From: Ruegeria arenilitoris | GTDB lineage: Bacteria; Pseudomonadota; Alphaproteobacteria; Rhodobacterales; Rhodobacteraceae | Assembly (NCBI RefSeq): GCF_013035425.1 | Contig: NZ_WQHX01000005.1 | Location: 124,001-188,000, forward strand | Length of the DNA: 64,000 nucleotides | Reading direction: 5' to 3' | Part shown: piece after piece, positions 24,175 through 33,338 of the stretch | Numbering within the stretch: position 1 is the stretch's first letter | How the letters are laid out: each line of letters begins with the position of its first letter | Notes under the pieces: generated by a model | Told to the model about the DNA's origin: nothing | Database searches by the model: none | What the model saw: only the letters and a program-made list of their open reading frames with translations | Translations under genes and position numbers: made by a program

Positions 24175-24870
24175 ATGAACCAATTGGATTTGATCAAAAA
24201 TAAGGCAACCGCAGCTCAGATGAATAATGAGAAACAACCCGCGCACGAGCAGGTATACCAAACCCTCAAGGCACAGATTCTGTTTGGCGATCTTGTTCCA
24301 GGTCAGCCCGTTACAATTCAGGGCCTGAGTGATTCGCTGGGCGTCGGCATGACACCGGTCCGCGAAGCCATCCGCAGGTTAATCTCGGACGGCGCGTTGG
24401 TGTTTCAAGGCAACCGCAGAGTCAGCGTTCCGCTGCTGTCGGACGTTCATGTGCAAGAGTTGATATTTGCAAGAAAGGCCATAGAATCAGAGCTTTCCAA
24501 GCGAGCTATCGCAAATCTCAACGAGGCGAACATCGATCGGTTGGAGCAGTTGGACAAGCAATTGGATCGCACCATTTCGGAAGGGGACGTGGGCGGCTAC
24601 CTGCGTTTGAACCACGCCTTTCATGAAACCCTTTACTCCTTTGCCGACGCGCCGATCTTGTCCGATCTGGCTGAGCGTTTGTGGCTGAGATTCGGGCCGT
24701 CTTTACGCGTCGTCTGCGGCCGATTCGGCACCCAAAGTTTGCCGGACAGGCACAAGGATATCATCTCGGCACTTCGTAACCGGGACTCAGAAAAGGCCGC
24801 GTTGGCCACGGCGCAAGACGTCGAACAAGGCATGGATTTGATATCTGGCGCTCTGGCGACCCGCACTTAG
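24175..24870 (+). CDS. GntR/FadR-type transcriptional regulator with FCD domain
   Basis: A 231-residue regulator. The N-terminal winged helix spans about residues 22-85 (HEQVYQTLKAQILFGDLVPG, SDSLGVGMTPVREAIRRL). The all-helical FCD effector domain follows, with the metal-ligand histidine in LNHAFHETLY. Set between the polyamine transport operon and the polyamine-type aminotransferase, it is the probable local regulator. A second in-frame start at 24220 (MNNEKQPAH) would leave the second TTGATCAA motif in the leader; I keep the first ATG with reservation. Confidence 0.88.
   Translation: MNQLDLIKNKATAAQMNNEKQPAHEQVYQTLKAQILFGDLVPGQPVTIQGLSDSLGVGMTPVREAIRRLISDGALVFQGNRRVSVPLLSDVHVQELIFARKAIESELSKRAIANLNEANIDRLEQLDKQLDRTISEGDVGGYLRLNHAFHETLYSFADAPILSDLAERLWLRFGPSLRVVCGRFGTQSLPDRHKDIISALRNRDSEKAALATAQDVEQGMDLISGALATRT
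24186..24197. promoter_or_regulatory. TTGATCAA motif, copy 2
   Basis: The second exact copy of GGATTTGATCAA, 12-26 bases into the annotated GntR gene. If translation really starts at 24220 this copy is in the leader, which would suit autoregulation. Confidence 0.4.
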
Positions 24871-24882
24871 AATGCGATTCGA

Positions 24883-24910
24883 TTGACAGCAATTAATTTG
24901 ATCATATTCT
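24883..24910 (+). promoter_or_regulatory. Promoter of the aminotransferase with overlapping TTGATCA motif
   Basis: TTGACA at 24883-24888 is a perfect -35; TATTCT at 24905-24910 is a fair -10 at 16 bases. The spacer contains ATTTGATCAT (24896-24905), a near copy of the two motifs around the GntR start. A repressor bound there would block RNA polymerase. Confidence 0.55.
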
Positions 24911-24941
24911 AGCCCCGAACGCTCTTGCAGGAGATTCTTTG

Positions 24942-26339
24942 ATGTCGACCATTACCAATCACATGCCGACCGCCGAACTACAGGCCCTGGATTCGGCGCA
25001 TCACATACACCCGTTCTCGGCTAATAACTCGCTGGGGAAAGAAGGCGCGCGCGTCATCACCAGGGCAAAAGGCATCTACCTGACTGACAGCGACGGTGAG
25101 GAAATCCTCGATGCAATGGCCGGGCTGTGGTGTGTCAATATCGGCTACGGCCGGGACGAATTGGCCGAAGCAGCTGCACGGCAGATGCGGGAACTTCCCT
25201 ACTACAACACGTTTTTTAAAACGACTCACGTGCCCGCAATAGCGCTGGCCGCGAAGTTAGCGGAGTTGGCACCCGGTGATTTGAACCATGTGTTTTTTGC
25301 TGCGGGCGGGTCCGAAGCGAACGACACCAACATTCGATTGGTCCGTACCTACTGGGCTGAAAAAGGTCAGCCGGAAAAGAACATCATCATTAGCCGCAAG
25401 AATGCCTATCACGGATCATCCGTTGGGTCGGCGTCTTTGGGCGGTATGGCTGGAATGCATGCTCAGGGCGGCATCCCGATTCCCAACATCCACCACATCA
25501 ATCAACCAAACTGGTGGGCAGAAGGCGGCGACTCGCAACCCGAAGAGTTCGGTCTGGCGCGCGCTCGTGAACTGGAAGAGGCCATACTGGAACTGGGCGA
25601 AGACCGCGTTGCCGCGTTTATCGCGGAACCCGTACAAGGCGCCGGTGGCGTTATTGTTGCCCCTGATTCTTACTGGCCAGAAATCCAACGCATTTGCGAC
25701 AAGTATGACATCCTTCTGATTGCGGATGAGGTTATTTGCGGATTTGGCCGGACAGGAAATTGGTTTGGTTCCCAGACAGTTGGAATTAGGCCCGATATCA
25801 TGACGATCGCCAAAGGCCTGAGTTCGGGATACGCCCCAATCGGTGGTTCGATCGTCAGTGACGAGATTGCAGAAGTGATCGGCGGAACGGAATTCAATCA
25901 CGGCTACACTTATTCCGGCCACCCGGTCGCGGCTGCGGTCGCTTTGGAAAATCTGCGTATCCTAGAAGAAGAAAAAATCGTGGATCACGTACGGGATGTC
26001 GCCGCCCCTTATCTGAAGAAAAAGTGGGAAGCATTGGCAGATCATCCGCTGGTAGGAGAGGCTAAGATCGTCGGCATGATGGCGTCAATTGCGCTTACCC
26101 CCGACAAAGCGAGCCGCGCCAAGTTCGCGTCCGATCCCGGCACTGTAGGCTATGTCTGCCGCGATCGGTGTTTCGCGAATAACCTGATAATGCGCCATGT
26201 AGGTGACCGTATGATCATCTCACCACCATTGATCCTTACAACCGATGACATCGATGAGATGTTCGTACGCATCCATAAGTCTTTGGATGAGGCGCAGGCC
26301 GACATCATCGAAAAAGGACTTATGAAGGCAGCTTCGTAA
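24942..26339 (+). CDS. Class III aminotransferase, putrescine/polyamine type
   Basis: A 465-residue PLP enzyme. Schiff-base Lys291 sits in TIAKGLSSGYAPIGG and Asp262 in LLIADEVICGFGRTG. The N-terminus HHIHPFSANNSLGKEGARVI and GLWCVNIGYGRDEL match the omega-amino acid/putrescine-pyruvate (SpuC-like) group. The expected reaction moves an amino group from putrescine, spermidine or a similar diamine to pyruvate, giving an aminoaldehyde. AGGAG at about 24929 fixes the ATG at 24942. Linkage to pot genes and a shared promoter motif support a role in polyamine use. Confidence 0.9.
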   Translation: MSTITNHMPTAELQALDSAHHIHPFSANNSLGKEGARVITRAKGIYLTDSDGEEILDAMAGLWCVNIGYGRDELAEAAARQMRELPYYNTFFKTTHVPAIALAAKLAELAPGDLNHVFFAAGGSEANDTNIRLVRTYWAEKGQPEKNIIISRKNAYHGSSVGSASLGGMAGMHAQGGIPIPNIHHINQPNWWAEGGDSQPEEFGLARARELEEAILELGEDRVAAFIAEPVQGAGGVIVAPDSYWPEIQRICDKYDILLIADEVICGFGRTGNWFGSQTVGIRPDIMTIAKGLSSGYAPIGGSIVSDEIAEVIGGTEFNHGYTYSGHPVAAAVALENLRILEEEKIVDHVRDVAAPYLKKKWEALADHPLVGEAKIVGMMASIALTPDKASRAKFASDPGTVGYVCRDRCFANNLIMRHVGDRMIISPPLILTTDDIDEMFVRIHKSLDEAQADIIEKGLMKAAS

Positions 26340-26368
26340 GGGTTAAAATTTACTTTTCTGGTCACGCA

Positions 26369-26390
26369 GGGCGGTTGTCTGGGACCGCCC
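26369..26390 (+). terminator. Hairpin after the aminotransferase gene
   Basis: GGGCGGT (26369-26375) pairs with ACCGCCC (26384-26390) around an 8-base loop, 30 bases after the stop. It is followed by TTCC only, so it is a weak or Rho-aided terminator. Confidence 0.45.
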
Positions 26391-26464
26391 TTCCGTGATC
26401 TCAACAGCGGTAATTGTGGCCCTTTCAATTACGTTCACTTCTGACTTCCCGGAGCAAGAAATGC

Positions 26465-27373
26465 TCAGGAACGCAACCAAGGAGGCCTTTTACCAATCCT
26501 TTCGAGCAAGAAATCCATGAAAACCCGGACCTTGGCCGACAACACATTGGACTGAGGATAGATCAGCCACAGAACTGTTTCCTCGGCGATCTTGTAGTCT
26601 GGCAGCACTCGAACAAGCACACCCGACGAAAGCTCGTTGTGTACACTCCAAAGTGAGTTTGCTGAAATGCCCGCCCCAGCCAAAGTCGCCAGTTTATGGC
26701 TACGACCATCATCCAAAATCAATCGACATTTCGCTCGCCGGGGCGCAAACAGATGCTTGCCACCATTCCGGTCAATTAGCCTGAGTTCGTTGGTGTTGCC
26801 GAACGCAATAAACTGATGGTTGTTTAAATCGTCCGGGGCCTCAGGTCTTCCATGCCTTTCAAGGTATTCTGGCGAAGCACATAGTACACGTGTATCGTCA
26901 GCTAGTTTACGGCCACGAAAACTGGAATCCTCTAGAACAGCGTTACGAAGAGCAAGATCGAAGCTGCCTTCGATTAGGTTGAACTGCTGGTCCGAAAGCC
27001 TCAGGTCAAGCGTCAAATCAGGTTGCTCTGCCATGAATACCGGCAAGATTGGCGCAATGTAAAGTTGCGCAAAAGTACTTGGTGCCGTGAACCTAAGCGT
27101 GCCCGAAACGCGGGCGGTTCCTTGACCCAAAGCGGCACGCGCAGCGTTTTCCCGGGCAATAATTTCCTGAGCATATGGCAAGAACTCTGCGCCTTCTGTG
27201 GATAGCGCCACTTTACGAGTCGTTCGGTGCATCAAATCGGCACCGATACTTTTCTCTAATTTCGCCATCCAAGCGCTTGCGACAGAAGGCGCGAGGCCAA
27301 GTTCTCGGCCAGCGGCGCTAATATTCAGCCTTTCTGCTGCAAGCACAAAAAGGCGTAGGGTATCCGTGTCCAT
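26465..27373 (-). CDS. LysR-family transcriptional regulator
   Basis: A 302-residue LysR protein. The N-terminal helix-turn-helix (FVLAAERLNISAAGRELGLAPSVASAWMAKLEK) spans about residues 9-42. A substrate-binding domain follows (LRFTAPSTFAQLYIAPILPVF, then GSFDLALRN). Its DLALRN and LIYPQ segments are of the CrgA/PA-type LysR subgroup. It diverges from a four-gene oxidoreductase operon with a 108-base gap, the classic arrangement for a LysR activator and its target. The inducer is unknown. Confidence 0.9.
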   Translation of the reverse strand: MDTDTLRLFVLAAERLNISAAGRELGLAPSVASAWMAKLEKSIGADLMHRTTRKVALSTEGAEFLPYAQEIIARENAARAALGQGTARVSGTLRFTAPSTFAQLYIAPILPVFMAEQPDLTLDLRLSDQQFNLIEGSFDLALRNAVLEDSSFRGRKLADDTRVLCASPEYLERHGRPEAPDDLNNHQFIAFGNTNELRLIDRNGGKHLFAPRRAKCRLILDDGRSHKLATLAGAGISANSLWSVHNELSSGVLVRVLPDYKIAEETVLWLIYPQSNVLSAKVRVFMDFLLERIGKRPPWLRS

Positions 27374-27481
27374 ATTATATCCAAAATCCGAATTCTGATG
27401 TCAATATCGACCCGTTTATTTCGAAAAATCAATCCTGCAAATATGAACAGAACGAGGAAACCATCCTTGGAGGCGACACAA

Positions 27482-27784
27482 ATGGCCTATTATTCAGTAC
27501 TTGCCGTTACACCAACCAACGAAGACTGGATCCCAGATTATCTTCCAACGGCGAATAAACTGGTTGCAAAGCATGGCGGCAAATATCTTGCCCGAACTAC
27601 AACCCACACTCAGGTTGAAGGCCCGTCTCAGCCTGCTGCTTTACGGATCATTCTTGAATGGCCCTCGAAAGAGGCAGCGATGAGCTTCATGAATGATCTC
27701 GAATACAAACCTCATCTAGAGGCGCGGACTGCAGGTTCAGAAAGCTATCACTTCGTCATCGATGGCAATGACGATCTTAGCTAG
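27482..27784 (+). CDS. DUF1330 protein
   Basis: A 100-residue protein of the DUF1330 ferredoxin-like (dimeric alpha-beta barrel) family: YYSVLAVTPTNEDWIPDYLPTANKLVAKHGGKYLART, LRIILEWPSKEAAMSFMNDLEYKPHLEAR. The ATG at 27482 has TTGGAGG at a good distance; in-frame starts back to 27398 lack such a site. First gene of the operon facing the LysR gene. Small proteins of this fold often bind or modify quinone-like or aromatic intermediates, but the role here is unknown. Confidence 0.8.
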   Translation: MAYYSVLAVTPTNEDWIPDYLPTANKLVAKHGGKYLARTTTHTQVEGPSQPAALRIILEWPSKEAAMSFMNDLEYKPHLEARTAGSESYHFVIDGNDDLS

Positions 27785-27829
27785 GAAATTCATTCCAAAA
27801 CGAACTGACCCAGCTCAAAGAGTAGACCA

Positions 27830-28606
27830 ATGCCACGCAAAGCAATTGTAAATTATCACGTTATTGCAGATCAGCGCCAAGCGTATCACATCGACGCTGG
27901 TGGGGTTCAGGGAAAGATCATCTCTCCTCCTCATGCGGTAACAGAAGTTAACTTGTACGACGTTCGCGCAGAGACTTCTGTCAGTTTTTCGGACGACAGC
28001 ATTGGGTTTGTTACTTCGGCTTCCGAAGTGCATTCATTTGAACAAGATGACGAATGGCATCGCGTTTACGATCAGGAACTCGATACACTTCTGTCCAGAA
28101 ATCTCGGTGCCAAAGAAGTGGTGGTTTTTGATCACACTGTGCGCGTTGACGATCCGAATTCAAACAGGAAACCGGCTCGTAATGTGCACAGCGATTACAG
28201 CCCTCAAGGGGCAAAACAGCGGTTGATTGATGTCTTGGGAGAAAAAAAGGCTGCTGTTTGGGAAAAGGGGCATTACGCCTTTGTTAACGTGTGGCGCCCG
28301 ATTCAAAACCCAATCAATTCGGCACCGCTTGGGTTTGTACGACCCTCAACAGTGGCTGAAACCGACTGGCTGCAGATTGATTTGGTTTATCCCGATCGCA
28401 AAGGGCACATCATGGGTTTGGTGGCCAATCCGGATCATGAGTGGGTCTATCAATCTCGAATGACCCCGAACGAAGTTGCCATATTCAACATCTACGACAA
28501 CCATGGCAAACCCTCCATCGGACACAGCGCGCTTGATTTGATTGAAGACCTGTCTTTGACCATCCCACGCAAGAGCATCGAAAGCCGCACCCTGATCCGT
28601 TACTGA
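27830..28606 (+). CDS. CmcJ/NvfI-like oxidoreductase
   Basis: A 258-residue protein resembling the CmcJ/NvfI (GA4 desaturase-like) family, non-haem iron enzymes related to 2-oxoglutarate oxygenases. Features I can see are HSDYSPQGA with His120 and Asp122 as likely iron ligands, the block HEWVYQSRMTPNEVAIFNIYD (about 203-223), and a late histidine in GHSALDL (near 232). Family members act on cephamycin, gibberellin-like and meroterpenoid substrates in other organisms; no substrate can be inferred here. The gene is the second in the operon, 45 bases after DUF1330. Confidence 0.72.
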   Translation: MPRKAIVNYHVIADQRQAYHIDAGGVQGKIISPPHAVTEVNLYDVRAETSVSFSDDSIGFVTSASEVHSFEQDDEWHRVYDQELDTLLSRNLGAKEVVVFDHTVRVDDPNSNRKPARNVHSDYSPQGAKQRLIDVLGEKKAAVWEKGHYAFVNVWRPIQNPINSAPLGFVRPSTVAETDWLQIDLVYPDRKGHIMGLVANPDHEWVYQSRMTPNEVAIFNIYDNHGKPSIGHSALDLIEDLSLTIPRKSIESRTLIRY

Positions 28607-28634
28607 TAGACGCTCCACGCAAATAGAGGTTGCA

Positions 28635-29618
28635 ATGCCAGACGGAAACGTGATCGCTGAATTCCCTAAACTGAACCGGGGTTACAATTCGGTCTTTCGA
28701 CCTGATGCGTTGAGTATTGGTTTGGTCGCCCCTCTGGAGGCTCACCATCACAACGCGGTTCCCGACATGTCTCGCCATACGGAAAGAGCGCAACTGGCGG
28801 ACAAACTCGGTTTCGCAGCACTTTGGTTAAGGGACGTTCCGTTTAACGTTCCTAACTTTGGCGATGCCGGGCAAATATACGACCCATTTGTCTATCTCGG
28901 ATTGCTCGCCGGGCTGACAAAGGAAATTGCGCTGGGCGTGGCCAGCATCGTTTTGCCACTGCGCCATCCAGCGCATGTTGCGAAGGCCGCAGCTTCGGGG
29001 GACCAACTTTCCGGCGGGCGGTTGCTGTTGGGTGTCGCGTCCGGAGATCGGCCCGAAGAATATCCGGCACTGGGTATGACCTATTCTGACAGAGGTGCTC
29101 GGTTCCGCGAAAGCCTAGAATACATTCGTAAAATGGCCACTGAGTATCCCGATTTTTCCAATAACCACGGAGAACTGAATGGGCGGTTCGATATGTTGCC
29201 CAAACCTGTTGCCAGCCACTTTCCGATTCTGATCACCGGCGGCAGCCAACAATCTCCGGATTGGATATCTGCTAACGGAGATGGTTGGATGACATATCCG
29301 CGCGATGCCAAAGCGCAAGCGCAGCTTGTCGAAAACTATCGCGCAAAATCTTCAGCAATTGGCAAACCTCCAAAACCGGTTATGCAATCGCTGTACATTG
29401 ACCTTGTTGCAGATACCTCGGCCGATCCCAGCCCAATTCATCTCGGCTTTCGGTCTGGCACCAAATTTTTGAAATCCTACCTGCGCGATCTGCAAGACTG
29501 CGGGATCAACCATGTGGCCCTGAACCTCCGGTTTAATGGCGGCGATGTCGAAGACACCATGAAACGTCTGGCAGATGAAGTACTGACAGAGTTTCCAACG
29601 CAAGGAACAACGCAATGA
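28635..29618 (+). CDS. Luciferase-like monooxygenase (BA3436 type)
   Basis: A 327-residue TIM-barrel flavin-dependent oxidoreductase of the bacterial luciferase superfamily. The segments LADKLGFAALWLRDVPF, LGVASIVLPLRHPAHVAKAA and LLLGVASGDRPEEYPALG match the BA3436-type subgroup. Such enzymes use FMNH2 or F420; an FMN reductase is not adjacent. It starts 28 bases after the CmcJ-like gene and its stop overlaps the SDR start by four bases, so all three are probably one transcript. Confidence 0.82.
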   Translation: MPDGNVIAEFPKLNRGYNSVFRPDALSIGLVAPLEAHHHNAVPDMSRHTERAQLADKLGFAALWLRDVPFNVPNFGDAGQIYDPFVYLGLLAGLTKEIALGVASIVLPLRHPAHVAKAAASGDQLSGGRLLLGVASGDRPEEYPALGMTYSDRGARFRESLEYIRKMATEYPDFSNNHGELNGRFDMLPKPVASHFPILITGGSQQSPDWISANGDGWMTYPRDAKAQAQLVENYRAKSSAIGKPPKPVMQSLYIDLVADTSADPSPIHLGFRSGTKFLKSYLRDLQDCGINHVALNLRFNGGDVEDTMKRLADEVLTEFPTQGTTQ

Positions 29619-30376
29619 CTAAAACAATACTGGTTACCGGAGCTACGGACGGAATAGGTCTGATGACGGCAAAAACTCTGGCCAATCGTGGACACCACGT
29701 CATTTTGCATGGGCGCAGCGTGGCCAAGCTCGCATCTGCCGCTTCTGAAATTGGTCAGGGCATATCAACTTACAGGGCGGATCTATCGTCTTTGCAAGAA
29801 GCATATGACTTGGCGATGTCGATACGTACCGACCATGATTGTATTGATGTTCTGATTAACAACGCGGGTGTCTTTAAAATTGGAGACCCGATTTTGCCGA
29901 ACGGGCAGGATGTTCGATTTGTTGTGAACACACTGGCACCGTACGCTTTGACGAAAGCGTTGCTGCCAATCATCCCAAAGGCAGGCAGAATCCTCAATCT
30001 GTCATCAGCGGCCCAAGCACCTGTCGACATCGCAGCCTTAAAAGGTCAATCCCGTTTGGGCGACATGGCCGCCTATGCCCAGAGCAAGCGCGCAATCACC
30101 ATTTGGTCGCATGAATTGGCCGGTCGCCTTGCTGAAGGTCCCGTAATCATCGCCGTCAATCCCGGTTCACTTCTTGCGTCCAAGATGGTCAAAGAAGGCT
30201 TCGGCGTGGCCGGCAACGACTTGCAGATTGGGGTAGACATTCTTTGCCGCCTCGCACTGGACCAGGACTTTGCCAATGACAGCGGAAAATACTGGGACAA
30301 CGATTTTGGCGGCTTTTCACCGGTCAATTTTGGCGATTCTGAACGTGTCATGAACGCAATCGAAGAACTCGTCTGA
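29615..30376 (+). CDS. Short-chain dehydrogenase/reductase
   Basis: A 253-residue classical/retinol-dehydrogenase-like SDR. The cofactor motif TGATDGIG is at about residues 8-15 with LHGRS after the second strand, suggesting NADP(H). NNAGVF follows, and the catalytic serine region LNLSSAAQ precedes YAQSKRA (Tyr and Lys of YxxxK). It overlaps the luciferase-like gene by four bases (ATGA). Last gene of the operon, followed by a terminator-like hairpin. Confidence 0.9.
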   Translation: MTKTILVTGATDGIGLMTAKTLANRGHHVILHGRSVAKLASAASEIGQGISTYRADLSSLQEAYDLAMSIRTDHDCIDVLINNAGVFKIGDPILPNGQDVRFVVNTLAPYALTKALLPIIPKAGRILNLSSAAQAPVDIAALKGQSRLGDMAAYAQSKRAITIWSHELAGRLAEGPVIIAVNPGSLLASKMVKEGFGVAGNDLQIGVDILCRLALDQDFANDSGKYWDNDFGGFSPVNFGDSERVMNAIEELV

Positions 30377-30396
30377 AAGTGCATAAATCACGAAAT

Positions 30397-30427
30397 AACG
30401 CGGCTTAAAAAATCCCGCGTTTTCTTA
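30397..30427 (+). terminator. Terminator of the DUF1330-CmcJ-LLM-SDR operon
   Basis: AACGCGG (30397-30403) pairs with CCGCGTT (30415-30421) around an A-rich 11-base loop, 20 bases after the SDR stop, then TTCTTAT. Plausible Rho-independent terminator. Confidence 0.65.
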
Positions 30428-30462
30428 TCCCTTCTCCTGAGGTGATGGGCGGATTTGTTCGT

Positions 30463-31779
30463 TTAACGCAATGCCTCCAATAGCTTCAGAGTCGGGTATC
30501 CATCCGGTAAAAAACCTTGCGCCAATTGAAATGCGCGAACGGCATTAACCGTGTTTGGTCCAGTCAGTCCGTCAATCCCTTGCGTATCAAAACCAGCTTG
30601 GGTCAAACGCTCTTGTAACTCTTTGCGCTCAGTAAAACTAAGCGCCCGGTCGCCCCTTGGCCAAGAGGCGTCAAAAGGTCTACCACCCGCCAATCTATCG
30701 GACAGATGACCAACTCCGATGACATAGGCGTCGGCACCGTTATAGGCTTCGATCACATTGAAGTTGTCAAAGGTCATTAACGATACCCCTTTGCCGCCGG
30801 CCGGCAGAAGAATCGCTGCACGCCCATAGTCCGGAACGGGTTTGCCATTTCGCCCAACGACCCCACGCTCGGCCCAATCTGACGGCATCTGAGTGAAGTC
30901 CCGCCTTGCGGTGGAATAGTCAAAACCGTCTGGCAGTTGAACCTCGACACCCCAAGGTTGACCCATCGTCCAACCATGTCGCGAAAGATAAGCCGCGGCA
31001 GATGCCAACGCATCCGTTGGATCATCCGACCAGATGTCGCGCCTTCCGTCGCCATCGAAATCCACCGCATATTTCAGATAGGATGTTGGCATGAATTGCG
31101 TATGCCCCATGGCACCGGCCCAGCTGCCGATCATCTTTGAGGGACTGACGTCACCCGAGTGAACAATCTGGAGTGCTGCGATCAGCTGCGTTTCAAAAAA
31201 CTTGGACCGCCTTGCGTCAAAGGCCAGGGTGGCCAAAGATTGAATAGTCTGGTTGTTACCGCGAAAGCTTCCGAACGAAGTCTCGAGCCCCCAAATCGCA
31301 ACCACGATCTCTTTTTCTACGCCGTACTTTGTTTCAATACGTTCTAACGCATTTCCATACTTTTCGAGCACGGCACGCCCGTCGACCACGCGCCTGTCTG
31401 ATACTGCCGAGTCCAGATATTCCCAGATTGTCTTGGAAAACTCAGCCTGATTTCGATCCCGGCGGATAACGTCTGTGTCATAAGTTAAGCCTGCCAACGC
31501 ACTATCCAGAGTGTATGATGAAACGCCCTGGTCTAATGCCCTTTGCCTGAAGGCACCCAGCCAAGCCTGAAATCTAGCATTTCCCTTAGTCGACACGCGT
31601 TGCACCTTTTCCGATGGCCTTACAACCGGCCGGATGGAAACTGTCACATCGGCCGAAGCCAAATGGAACGCTGTATCTAACCCTTTGGGAACCCGCCATT
31701 TCACGTTTTCTGTTGTTTCCGCCTGCACGATGGATGCCCACAATGCGACGGTCATTATGCCACCTACGCATTTATGCAT
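30463..31779 (-). CDS. Lytic murein transglycosylase, MltB family
   Basis: A 438-residue exported enzyme with a short signal sequence (MHKCVGGIMTVALWASIVQA). The SLT_2/MltB catalytic domain covers about 65-365: the catalytic Glu lies in AIWGLETSFGSFRG, and GSWAGAMGHTQFMPTSY and DFDGDGRRDIW follow as in MltB. A C-terminal peptidoglycan-binding domain (LTQAGFDTQGIDGLTGPNTVNAVRAFQ) ends the protein. It cleaves glycan strands with 1,6-anhydro ends in the periplasm. The Cys in the signal is not in a clear lipobox, so it is probably soluble. Confidence 0.92.
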   Translation of the reverse strand: MHKCVGGIMTVALWASIVQAETTENVKWRVPKGLDTAFHLASADVTVSIRPVVRPSEKVQRVSTKGNARFQAWLGAFRQRALDQGVSSYTLDSALAGLTYDTDVIRRDRNQAEFSKTIWEYLDSAVSDRRVVDGRAVLEKYGNALERIETKYGVEKEIVVAIWGLETSFGSFRGNNQTIQSLATLAFDARRSKFFETQLIAALQIVHSGDVSPSKMIGSWAGAMGHTQFMPTSYLKYAVDFDGDGRRDIWSDDPTDALASAAAYLSRHGWTMGQPWGVEVQLPDGFDYSTARRDFTQMPSDWAERGVVGRNGKPVPDYGRAAILLPAGGKGVSLMTFDNFNVIEAYNGADAYVIGVGHLSDRLAGGRPFDASWPRGDRALSFTERKELQERLTQAGFDTQGIDGLTGPNTVNAVRAFQLAQGFLPDGYPTLKLLEALR

Positions 31780-31848
31780 TCCGATTTTTCCTGATTACTG
31801 CTCAGCCTCAGCATAGCGCAAAACTGAAGTTTCGCAAAATCCTCAGAT

Positions 31849-32556
31849 CTAATTTTCTTGCTCTTTTCCTTCGCGGTCTGCTCGAACACGCACTAGCGCA
31901 GCGCGTAGCAACGGAACACGGTTTGGCCGGAAACTCTGGTCTGTAACAGACATTTCGCGCATCCGATCCAAACGAAAGACCCTAAAATCTTTGCGCAAAT
32001 GACACCAACTTACCAGCATGCTGGCGCGATCCATGTAGACGATGCTTAGCGGGTTAACCCGACGATGTGTTTTATCACCCTTTTCATCGGTGTAAGCGAA
32101 ATCCACGGCGCGTTCGTCCCACGTTGCCTGCCGTAATTCAGAGACTTCGATTCCCGGTACGGCAGGCCGTTCAAAACGCGTCGCAGTTAACACCGCATGG
32201 CTGAGCCGGTGCGATTGTCGCTGCGGCAACCGACCTTGCAATTTACGCAACGCTGTACTGGCCGCTTCAGATAGGGCCGGATCTCCAATCAACTGAACTT
32301 CTCGTAAGCCCAGAACCAGCGCTTCCAATTCGTCGTCAGTGAAACCCAATGGCGGCAGCGTTGCGTCTTCGATCAAGGTAAACCCAAATCCCGCCTCACC
32401 ATCAATCACGGCTCCCAAACCCCGCAGAGTGTCGATATCTCGATGCACTGTGCGCGCTGAAACACCAAGATCTTGCGCCAATTGCGCAGAGGTCTTCGGC
32501 GACGGGCCAGAGCGCAGAGCTTGCATAAGCTGAAACAGGCGTGCGGTGCGGGACAT
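31849..32556 (-). CDS. YafY-type transcriptional regulator (HTH + WYL)
   Basis: A 235-residue regulator. The N-terminal DeoR-like helix-turn-helix (SRTARLFQLMQAL, LAQDLGVSARTVHRDIDTLRGLG) is followed by a WYL domain whose core appears in RVNPLSIVYMDRASMLVSWCHLRKDFRVFRLDRM. WYL regulators sense nucleotides or other small ligands. It diverges from a GST-like gene, with a palindrome (32580-32594) between them. The start at 32556 is favoured because the frame upstream reads into that palindrome. Confidence 0.88.
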   Translation of the reverse strand: MSRTARLFQLMQALRSGPSPKTSAQLAQDLGVSARTVHRDIDTLRGLGAVIDGEAGFGFTLIEDATLPPLGFTDDELEALVLGLREVQLIGDPALSEAASTALRKLQGRLPQRQSHRLSHAVLTATRFERPAVPGIEVSELRQATWDERAVDFAYTDEKGDKTHRRVNPLSIVYMDRASMLVSWCHLRKDFRVFRLDRMREMSVTDQSFRPNRVPLLRAALVRVRADREGKEQEN

Positions 32557-32579
32557 AACATAAAATAACCTACGCCTAG

Positions 32580-32594
32580 TGACAGAAATTGTCA
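32580..32594. promoter_or_regulatory. Palindrome TGACA-N5-TGTCA
   Basis: Perfect 5-bp arms (32580-32584 and 32590-32594) in the 83-base gap between the divergent WYL regulator and GST-like genes. Candidate operator for the regulator. Confidence 0.5.
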
Positions 32595-32639
32595 TTAGTC
32601 CAGCTTATCCCCTTGTCATCACCAAAACTGGAGCGCCCG

Positions 32640-33338
32640 ATGCTGACACTTCTGACCTACCCACCCGCCTTTGGCTTGTTCAGTGCAAGCCCGTTCTGCG
32701 TTAAGTCTGCATTGATGCTTCAACATTGCGGCCAAGATTGGCAGCGCTCTGACATGCTGGATCCTCGGAAGATGCCGCATAGAAAACTACCGGTCCTACG
32801 AACGCCTGAACGGTTGGTTCCGGACAGTGACCAAATCCGCGATTGGTTAGAGGCTCAGGGCGCAGATTTTGACCATGGTCTAACGGATGTTCAAAAGGCT
32901 CAGTCTCGGGCGTTGGTTCGAATGGCAGAGGAGCATCTGTACTTTCAGATCGTACTTGATCGTTGGGGTAATGACACTGTTTGGCCAATCCTGCGGGAGA
33001 CCTTTTTCACTGAGATACCCGCCATGTTTCGGAAACTGGTGAGTAATTCAATTCGCAAATCAGTATTGAGAGGACTTGAGGCTCAAGGGGTTTCGCGGTT
33101 TTCAAAGGCTGAGCGGACAGATCGGATCGAACGTGACCTGAGGGCAATCTCAGAGTTTTTGCGCAATTCGCAATTCTTGTTGGGAGAGAAACCGACATCG
33201 GCAGACATGAGTGTTGGGCCGATGCTGGCCGCGATGCGCGCCACGCCCGCAGAAACGTCACTGACACGTCGGATCAAACAGGATAGGCTGCTAAACAGCT
33301 ATGTATATAGGATGCAGCAGGCTATTCCCTTGTCATGA
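32640..33338 (+). CDS. Glutathione S-transferase family protein
   Basis: A 232-residue GST-fold protein. The N-terminal thioredoxin-like domain has FSASPFCVKSALMLQHC and LPVLRTPERLVPDSDQIRDWLEA with the cis-Pro and SNAIL-like Asp-Ser pair. An all-helical C-terminal domain contains LRAISEFLRNSQFLLGEKPTSADMSVGPML. The reaction is unknown. ATG at 32640 has TGGAG at 32629-32633. It overlaps the DUF1801 gene by four bases. Confidence 0.85.
   Translation: MLTLLTYPPAFGLFSASPFCVKSALMLQHCGQDWQRSDMLDPRKMPHRKLPVLRTPERLVPDSDQIRDWLEAQGADFDHGLTDVQKAQSRALVRMAEEHLYFQIVLDRWGNDTVWPILRETFFTEIPAMFRKLVSNSIRKSVLRGLEAQGVSRFSKAERTDRIERDLRAISEFLRNSQFLLGEKPTSADMSVGPMLAAMRATPAETSLTRRIKQDRLLNSYVYRMQQAIPLS

Follow-up and report, generated by a model that had tools for sequence, protein, structure and literature searches.

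A LysR-linked CmcJ/NvfI-family oxygenase operon with exchangeable modules in Ruegeria arenilitoris and related bacteria

Organization of the locus

A stretch of 64,000 nucleotides from the α-proteobacterium Ruegeria arenilitoris (contig NZ_WQHX01000005.1 of assembly GCF_013035425.1, positions 124,001 to 188,000 of the forward strand; hereafter the window) carries, at positions 26465-30427 counted from its first letter, four genes that run in one direction and face the gene of a LysR-type regulator. The four genes encode a DUF1330 protein, an oxygenase of the CmcJ/NvfI family (hereafter CmcJ), a luciferase-like monooxygenase (LLM) and a short-chain dehydrogenase/reductase (SDR). The original prediction, made from the letters alone, took them for a LysR-controlled oxidation pathway acting on one organic molecule. 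The features of the locus are the following.

26465..27373, minus strand: LysR-type regulator (PF00126 and PF03466), divergent from the operon
27374..27481, unstranded: spacer shared by LysR and the operon, 108 bases, 38% GC
27380..27392, unstranded: T-N11-A LysR-type box, within the conserved stretch 27374-27398
27482..27784, plus strand: DUF1330 protein, 100 aa, optional module (PF07045)
27830..28606, plus strand: CmcJ/NvfI-family oxygenase, 258 aa, core enzyme (NF041278)
28635..29618, plus strand: LLM, 327 aa, frequent module (PF00296, TIGR03571)
29615..30376, plus strand: SDR, 253 aa, core enzyme (PF00106)
about 30392..30424, plus strand: likely intrinsic terminator, a hairpin followed by U-rich sequence

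The predicted layout, with a LysR spacer of 108 bases, gaps of 45 and 28 bases, an overlap of 4 bases and a single direction, proved exact to the base, and the predicted families hold as well: Pfam scores were passed for LysR, DUF1330, LLM and SDR, and NCBIfam cut-offs for the oxygenase and the LLM. The oxygenase, for which Pfam returns no family at E 0.01, matches NF041278 (CmcJ/NvfI family oxidoreductase) at 245 bits versus a cut-off of 80, and the LLM matches TIGR03571 at 393.1 bits (cut-off 303.9). The top NCBIfam match of LysR is YafC, at 187.9 bits, far below the cut-off of 470. The longest open reading frame of DUF1330 starts at 27398, and an ATG with GGAGG directly upstream is found at 27482; read from the latter, the protein matches PF07045 over residues 4-95 of 100 with 60.8 bits (cut-off 23). 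Classical SDRs share the motifs TGxxxGIG, NNAG and YxxxK, which are present in the translated SDR gene as TGATDGIG, NNAG and YAQSK. A folding test located the hairpin claimed behind the SDR gene (-9.6 kcal/mol, z -2.73, with an equal or better fold in 2 of 200 shuffles); a simple terminator scan does not report this hairpin, the loop of which has 11 bases where the scan permits 3-8. A sigma-70 scan of 27374-30480 gave one match overall and none in the spacer between LysR and the operon. The genome of the strain contains six DUF1330 stretches; its matches to the LLM comprise a single full one and three weak ones at 30-34% identity. The GC content of the operon (50.9%) deviates weakly from the mean of equal-length stretches of the window (52.7%, with 4.3% of these as low), and a strongly foreign base composition was rejected on this ground.

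A conserved core with exchangeable modules

Sixty-seven loci were compared, with L002, L003, L005, L009, L012, L086 and L147 dropped as duplicates and longer stretches replacing short search loci. The oxygenase is present with at least 50% identity over more than 90% of its length in 49 of the 67, the window included, and two of these (L006 and L074) show an internal stop. Among the 49 loci, a divergent LysR of at least 50% identity is found in 43 and a downstream SDR in 46, versus 31 with an LLM and 8 with a DUF1330 gene upstream of CmcJ; hence LysR, CmcJ and SDR form the core of the unit, with the LLM as a frequent module and DUF1330 as a rare one. The loci not counted for LysR are L007, L011, L150 and L153, in which the search found none, L008, with a LysR of 28% identity, and L048, where the gene is present and rearranged; L007, L011 and L048 (SDR on the other strand) are not counted for the SDR. 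L048, which belongs to another genus, has the oxygenase on one strand, the SDR and LLM on the other, and genes for a crotonase and a medium-chain dehydrogenase/reductase (MDR) at its edges.

The order LysR-CmcJ-SDR is kept over genera and orders at CmcJ identities of 53-76% and, reappearing in dozens of genomes, is not due to chance. In loci lacking the LLM, the SDR match starts 31-143 bases past the oxygenase match, and in those possessing it the corresponding distances are 16-67 and 0-32 bases. Further modules among the 49 loci are a crotonase (26), an MDR (15), a second 2-oxoglutarate (2OG) oxygenase (7), a sigma-54 regulator (7) and a nitroreductase (5). The crotonase module belongs to PF00378, and the two catalytic glutamates of crotonases can be read in it at what we take to be their positions; the MDR module has the PIG3 quinone oxidoreductase family as its top NCBIfam match, with 215.1 bits and below the cut-off of 296.8. 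The exact gene set of the window occurs in five loci (the window, Tateyamaria, G007, G002 and G508), which the oxygenase tree (support 0.84) and the SDR tree (1.0) both place in one cluster. More generally, the distances among LysR, CmcJ, SDR and LLM sequences co-vary (Mantel r 0.79-0.94, n 28-44, with 0 of 999 permutations as high), in a test that cannot tell co-transfer from vertical co-inheritance.

The original prediction held that a pathway would become doubtful if relatives carried the genes apart. This is not the case for LysR, CmcJ and SDR, which keep their order in all 29 near-full-length CmcJ loci of the same genus. As a set of four, the prediction stands in part: LysR, CmcJ and SDR are co-inherited, but the LLM is absent from 18 of the 49 loci and an upstream DUF1330 from 41. 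We therefore rejected a fixed four-gene pathway, given the loci without LLM, and likewise DUF1330 as a fixed partner, given its presence upstream of CmcJ in only 8 loci. The NF041278 loci of the class do not support the operon as a general trait of the oxygenase family. Matches to this family above its cut-off come from 83 of the 385 genomes searched in the class and from 0 of 14 control genomes, and a tblastn search of 20 of 30 such loci with the window proteins, which misses homologues much below 30% identity, returned the LLM in 0, the SDR in 2 and LysR in 2.

The regulatory spacer

The spacers of 47 loci, which lead from LysR to a gene for DUF1330, CmcJ, nitroreductase or crotonase, have in common a stretch resembling ATTATATCCAAAATCCGAATTCTGA, placed immediately outside the start of LysR. 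The pattern TTAT[AGC]N5-9CGAA occurs in 34 of the 47 spacers, whereas 200 rounds of shuffling gave 0.8 on average and never more than 4; the count is descriptive, since the pattern was picked after viewing the alignment and some spacers are near duplicates (L092 and L155). The search for a T-N11-A box in 27374-27481 that had been proposed at the outset yielded one at 27380-27392: at the column pair T27380/A27392 the two bases are kept in 41 of 47 spacers, the next best pair reaching 26, and the box is conserved whichever gene follows the spacer. Binding of LysR to the box, and induction of the operon by a compound, seem plausible.

Distribution, insertion site and mobility

Within the genus, 31 of 50 genomes searched (G001-G050) contain an oxygenase match and 19 have none. 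Two of the matches are fragments only (G003 and G041) and 29 are near full-length, including that of G019, which has an in-frame stop; each of these 29 loci has a divergent LysR and a downstream SDR, and they include the LLM in 24 cases, the crotonase in 22 and an upstream DUF1330 in 4. Two genomes hold a second, incomplete locus, located at a contig end in G013 and decayed in G048. In the family, 14 of 295 genomes match, with the strain's own among them: 12 reach at least 56% identity, one is distant (33%) and one is truncated. In the phylum, a threshold of 1e-30 leaves 10 of 398 genomes, of which three, again including its own, reach about 50% identity or more. The nearest copy seen is that of Tateyamaria, another genus (oxygenase 76%, LysR 81%). 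Plasmid copies are found in Phaeobacter porticola (pP97_b), Ruegeria sp. SCSIO 43209 and Roseibium aggregatum S1616. The stated sources of these three carriers are a barnacle site, coral and marine biofilm, which agree, as thin evidence from three records only, with a compound of marine surfaces.

The window operon sits between genes for a class-III aminotransferase and an MltB-like lytic transglycosylase (edges 26340-26464 and 30377-30462). A search for the latter in the 50 same-genus relatives yielded 29 loci, and in 27 of them the aminotransferase directly adjoins the transglycosylase, with a spacer of 45-105 bases in 11 and of 383-1358 bases in 16; in the other two (L192 and L197) no aminotransferase is seen within reach. 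No operon-gene match was found in any of these 29 short loci. Because its flanking genes are neighbours in 27 of 29 relatives, the window operon is a discrete insert some 4 kb in size. Several of these relatives have the operon at another place. The full-length oxygenases closest to that of the window within the genus (G002 and G007, 71%) belong to operons on other contigs than the transglycosylase locus, the unit is found at different genomic sites and in different orders, and a damaged copy in Alisedimentitalea lies close to two transposase genes. The best reading of this distribution is that the unit has spread horizontally.

With 383-1358 bases in 16 of the 27 relatives, the spacer between aminotransferase and transglycosylase may be a place that takes up DNA often. 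Decayed or truncated oxygenase genes are seen in L006, L074 (G019), L078 (G041), L079 (G003), L083 (G048), L092 and L155. In the last two, which are 86% alike, only the first 100 or so oxygenase residues are left and the iron triad is lost; LysR, LLM and SDR are still adjacent.

The oxygenase and its named relatives

A predicted model of the window oxygenase (pLDDT 84.5, pTM 0.85, from 13 sequences) was searched with Foldseek, and all ten top PDB matches are chains of NvfI and CTB9. In a phmmer search the sequence matches NvfI at 7.2e-12 (the W199F entry) and 1.2e-11, and 7eus, named as CTB9 among the structure matches, at 1.9e-10. NvfI, a fungal endoperoxidase that depends on Fe(II) and 2OG and takes part in novofumigatonin biosynthesis, resembles the window oxygenase in fold (TM-score 0.84, E 1e-20) and has its HxD and H positions aligned with it, yet the two share only 23% identity; since NvfI acts in a fungal meroterpenoid pathway, its endoperoxide chemistry is not to be assumed for the window enzyme. 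CTB9, which forms the methylenedioxy bridge of cercosporin in fungi, likewise has the same fold (TM-score 0.82-0.85) but differs in sequence (23-24% identity) and in its substrates, given as perylenequinones in the accessible part of PMC11026467.

Residues H120, D122, H232 and R247, corresponding to an HxD...H iron triad and a C-terminal Arg, are unchanged in 13 of 13 aligned oxygenases, a set that omits L006 owing to the internal stop in its gene. Counted by hand on the phmmer alignment, the triad faces H155, D157 and H270 of the NvfI chain; an offset of 20 brings these into register with residues 135, 137 and 250 of the published enzyme. The excerpt of PMC8292354 prints the NvfI triad as His135-His137-Asp250, an order that disagrees with the letters of the chain, and the triad assignment used here is our own. 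Given the NvfI/CTB9-like fold and the invariant residues, the modelled window oxygenase is likely to depend on Fe(II) and 2-oxoglutarate.

The window oxygenase also shares with CmcJ of cephamycin clusters the NCBI subfamily NF041278, named after it, but neither the operon nor its five annotated flanking genes include the CmcI-type methyltransferase of those clusters. The portion of PMC6097109 available assigns CmcJ as the cephamycin 7-alpha-hydroxylase from cluster sequencing, and reports no biochemical study of the recombinant protein up to that time. For the LLM, the TIGR03571 protein of PDB 2b81, presumably from Bacillus cereus, is matched at a phmmer E of 6.2e-66; it was deposited under its family name only, and gives the window LLM no function.

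LysR-switched catabolic operons, with a divergent LysR, a T-N11-A box and an oxygenase plus dehydrogenase, are a well-known kind. The window unit is alike in its divergent LysR, in its conserved box and in pairing an oxygenase with a dehydrogenase, and unlike them in that its oxygenase family is named after biosynthetic enzymes and that its other modules are exchanged between strains. As a LysR-switched oxidative operon it belongs to a known kind, and the new element is the combination of genes, together with the modular manner of its spread. The literature searched, with subscription papers lying outside the search, yielded no description of this gene set; one paper that speaks of an "NvfI family" (PMC11273597) deals, judging from its title, with scallop peptides, and the LLM text of PMC9769649 concerns LLM-like genes of two other strains.

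Proposed function and alternatives

With moderate confidence, we read the unit as an inducible, modular and horizontally spread operon under a LysR switch that serves to break down oxidatively, or to detoxify, one class of organic compound from outside. This compound or one of its products would bind LysR at the T-N11-A box and switch the operon on. The CmcJ/NvfI enzyme would then oxidize a carbon of the compound using Fe(II), O2 and 2-oxoglutarate, and the SDR would turn the new alcohol into a ketone, or reduce a carbonyl; the constancy of the oxygenase and SDR as a pair points to hydroxylation plus alcohol oxidation. Where present, the LLM might contribute a further oxidation that depends on flavin, perhaps an oxygen insertion of the Baeyer-Villiger type; the reduced flavin would presumably come from a reductase encoded elsewhere. 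DUF1330 would be an accessory of few lineages. In other strains the crotonase, the quinone-reductase-like MDR, the nitroreductase or the second 2OG oxygenase may add or replace steps, and the first three of these could handle enones, quinones or coenzyme A esters; interchangeable modules would make sense in strains that deal with differing versions of the substrate. The oxidation pathway of the original prediction survives in this form, as oxidoreductase genes inherited together next to a divergent LysR that is itself conserved, though not as a fixed set of four genes.

Its main rival is biosynthetic tailoring, whereby the operon would modify a scaffold whose genes lie in another part of the genome, in the manner of NvfI and CTB9, to yield a signal or defensive metabolite. 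LLMs and SDRs are common tailoring enzymes, the nearest solved structures (NvfI and CTB9) are biosynthetic, and so is the cephamycin role that cluster sequencing assigns to CmcJ (PMC6097109, in part). The five annotated flanking genes (24175-33338), which encode a GntR regulator, the class-III aminotransferase, the lytic transglycosylase, a WYL regulator and a glutathione S-transferase, nevertheless include no scaffold gene, the rest of the genome not having been searched for one; neither these genes, as annotated by Pfam, nor the incomplete gene lists of the three plasmid copies show a polyketide synthase, non-ribosomal peptide synthetase or terpene cyclase. A cephamycin-type cluster is likewise not indicated, with no CmcI methyltransferase or beta-lactam core gene among the annotated genes of 24175-33338. 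Moreover, a tailoring unit that sits at different sites and in different orders would need a scaffold pathway at each of them. We regard tailoring as possible but rather unlikely, and favour breakdown or detoxification, because no scaffold gene lies among the neighbours examined and the copies are patchy, transferred and sometimes decayed. The damaged copies would fit a trait of use only at times.

A response to stress, in which LysR senses a quinone or another electrophile, the SDR, LLM, MDR and nitroreductase scavenge it and the oxygenase plays a minor part, would account for the PIG3-like MDR (its match, as said, being under the cut-off) and the nitroreductase among the modules. The constant enzymes, however, are the oxygenase and the SDR, whereas the MDR and nitroreductase are found in 15 and 5 of the 49 loci and neither is in the window operon, so that we hold this explanation improbable. 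That unrelated genes lie in one direction by mere chance would suit the rarity of DUF1330 upstream of CmcJ (8 of 49 loci), but it is refuted for LysR, CmcJ and SDR by an order that persists over genera and orders, and is very improbable for the unit.

Several observations weigh against breakdown or detoxification. The named relatives of the oxygenase, CmcJ, NvfI and CTB9, all belong to biosynthesis. The window operon contains no transporter and no evident ring-cleavage enzyme, and shows no visible route to central metabolism. The oxygenases of Paraglaciecola (L007, 55%) and Alteromonas (L011, 51%) have no operon partners nearby, and the Mantel correlations given above do not tell co-transfer from vertical co-inheritance.

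A wider reading, which we put forward tentatively and consider doubtful, is that a bacterial clade of an oxygenase family named for biosynthesis has come to form the heart of a catabolic or counter-defence cassette that is transferable and directed against natural products of hosts or competitors, with the modules adapting it to the products. If so, marine surface bacteria would use the cassette to attack such compounds. Of the 50 same-genus genomes searched, more than half (29) carry the unit, which also travels on plasmids, and no characterized relative supplies the substrate of its core. With one regulator, one box and three or four enzymes, it is a compact and testable case for identifying the natural compound that rewards carriers of the set, and it bears also on whether an oxygenase family known from biosynthesis was turned to degradation.

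Outlying relatives

The oxygenase of L206 (G1053, of the same phylum but a different class) is about 50% identical and has in its vicinity a LysR (41%), an MDR (65%) and the second 2OG oxygenase (56%), so that the module pool extends outside the class of the window strain. Distant oxygenase relatives on Variovorax and Caballeronia plasmids (L090 and L093) stand beside TauD-type and LLM genes, as well as ABC transporter or solute-binding genes, possibly for organosulfur use; a sulfonate substrate was not adopted for the window unit, these relatives being at only about 33% identity. L090 also carries a family 2A encapsulin with its cysteine desulfurase.

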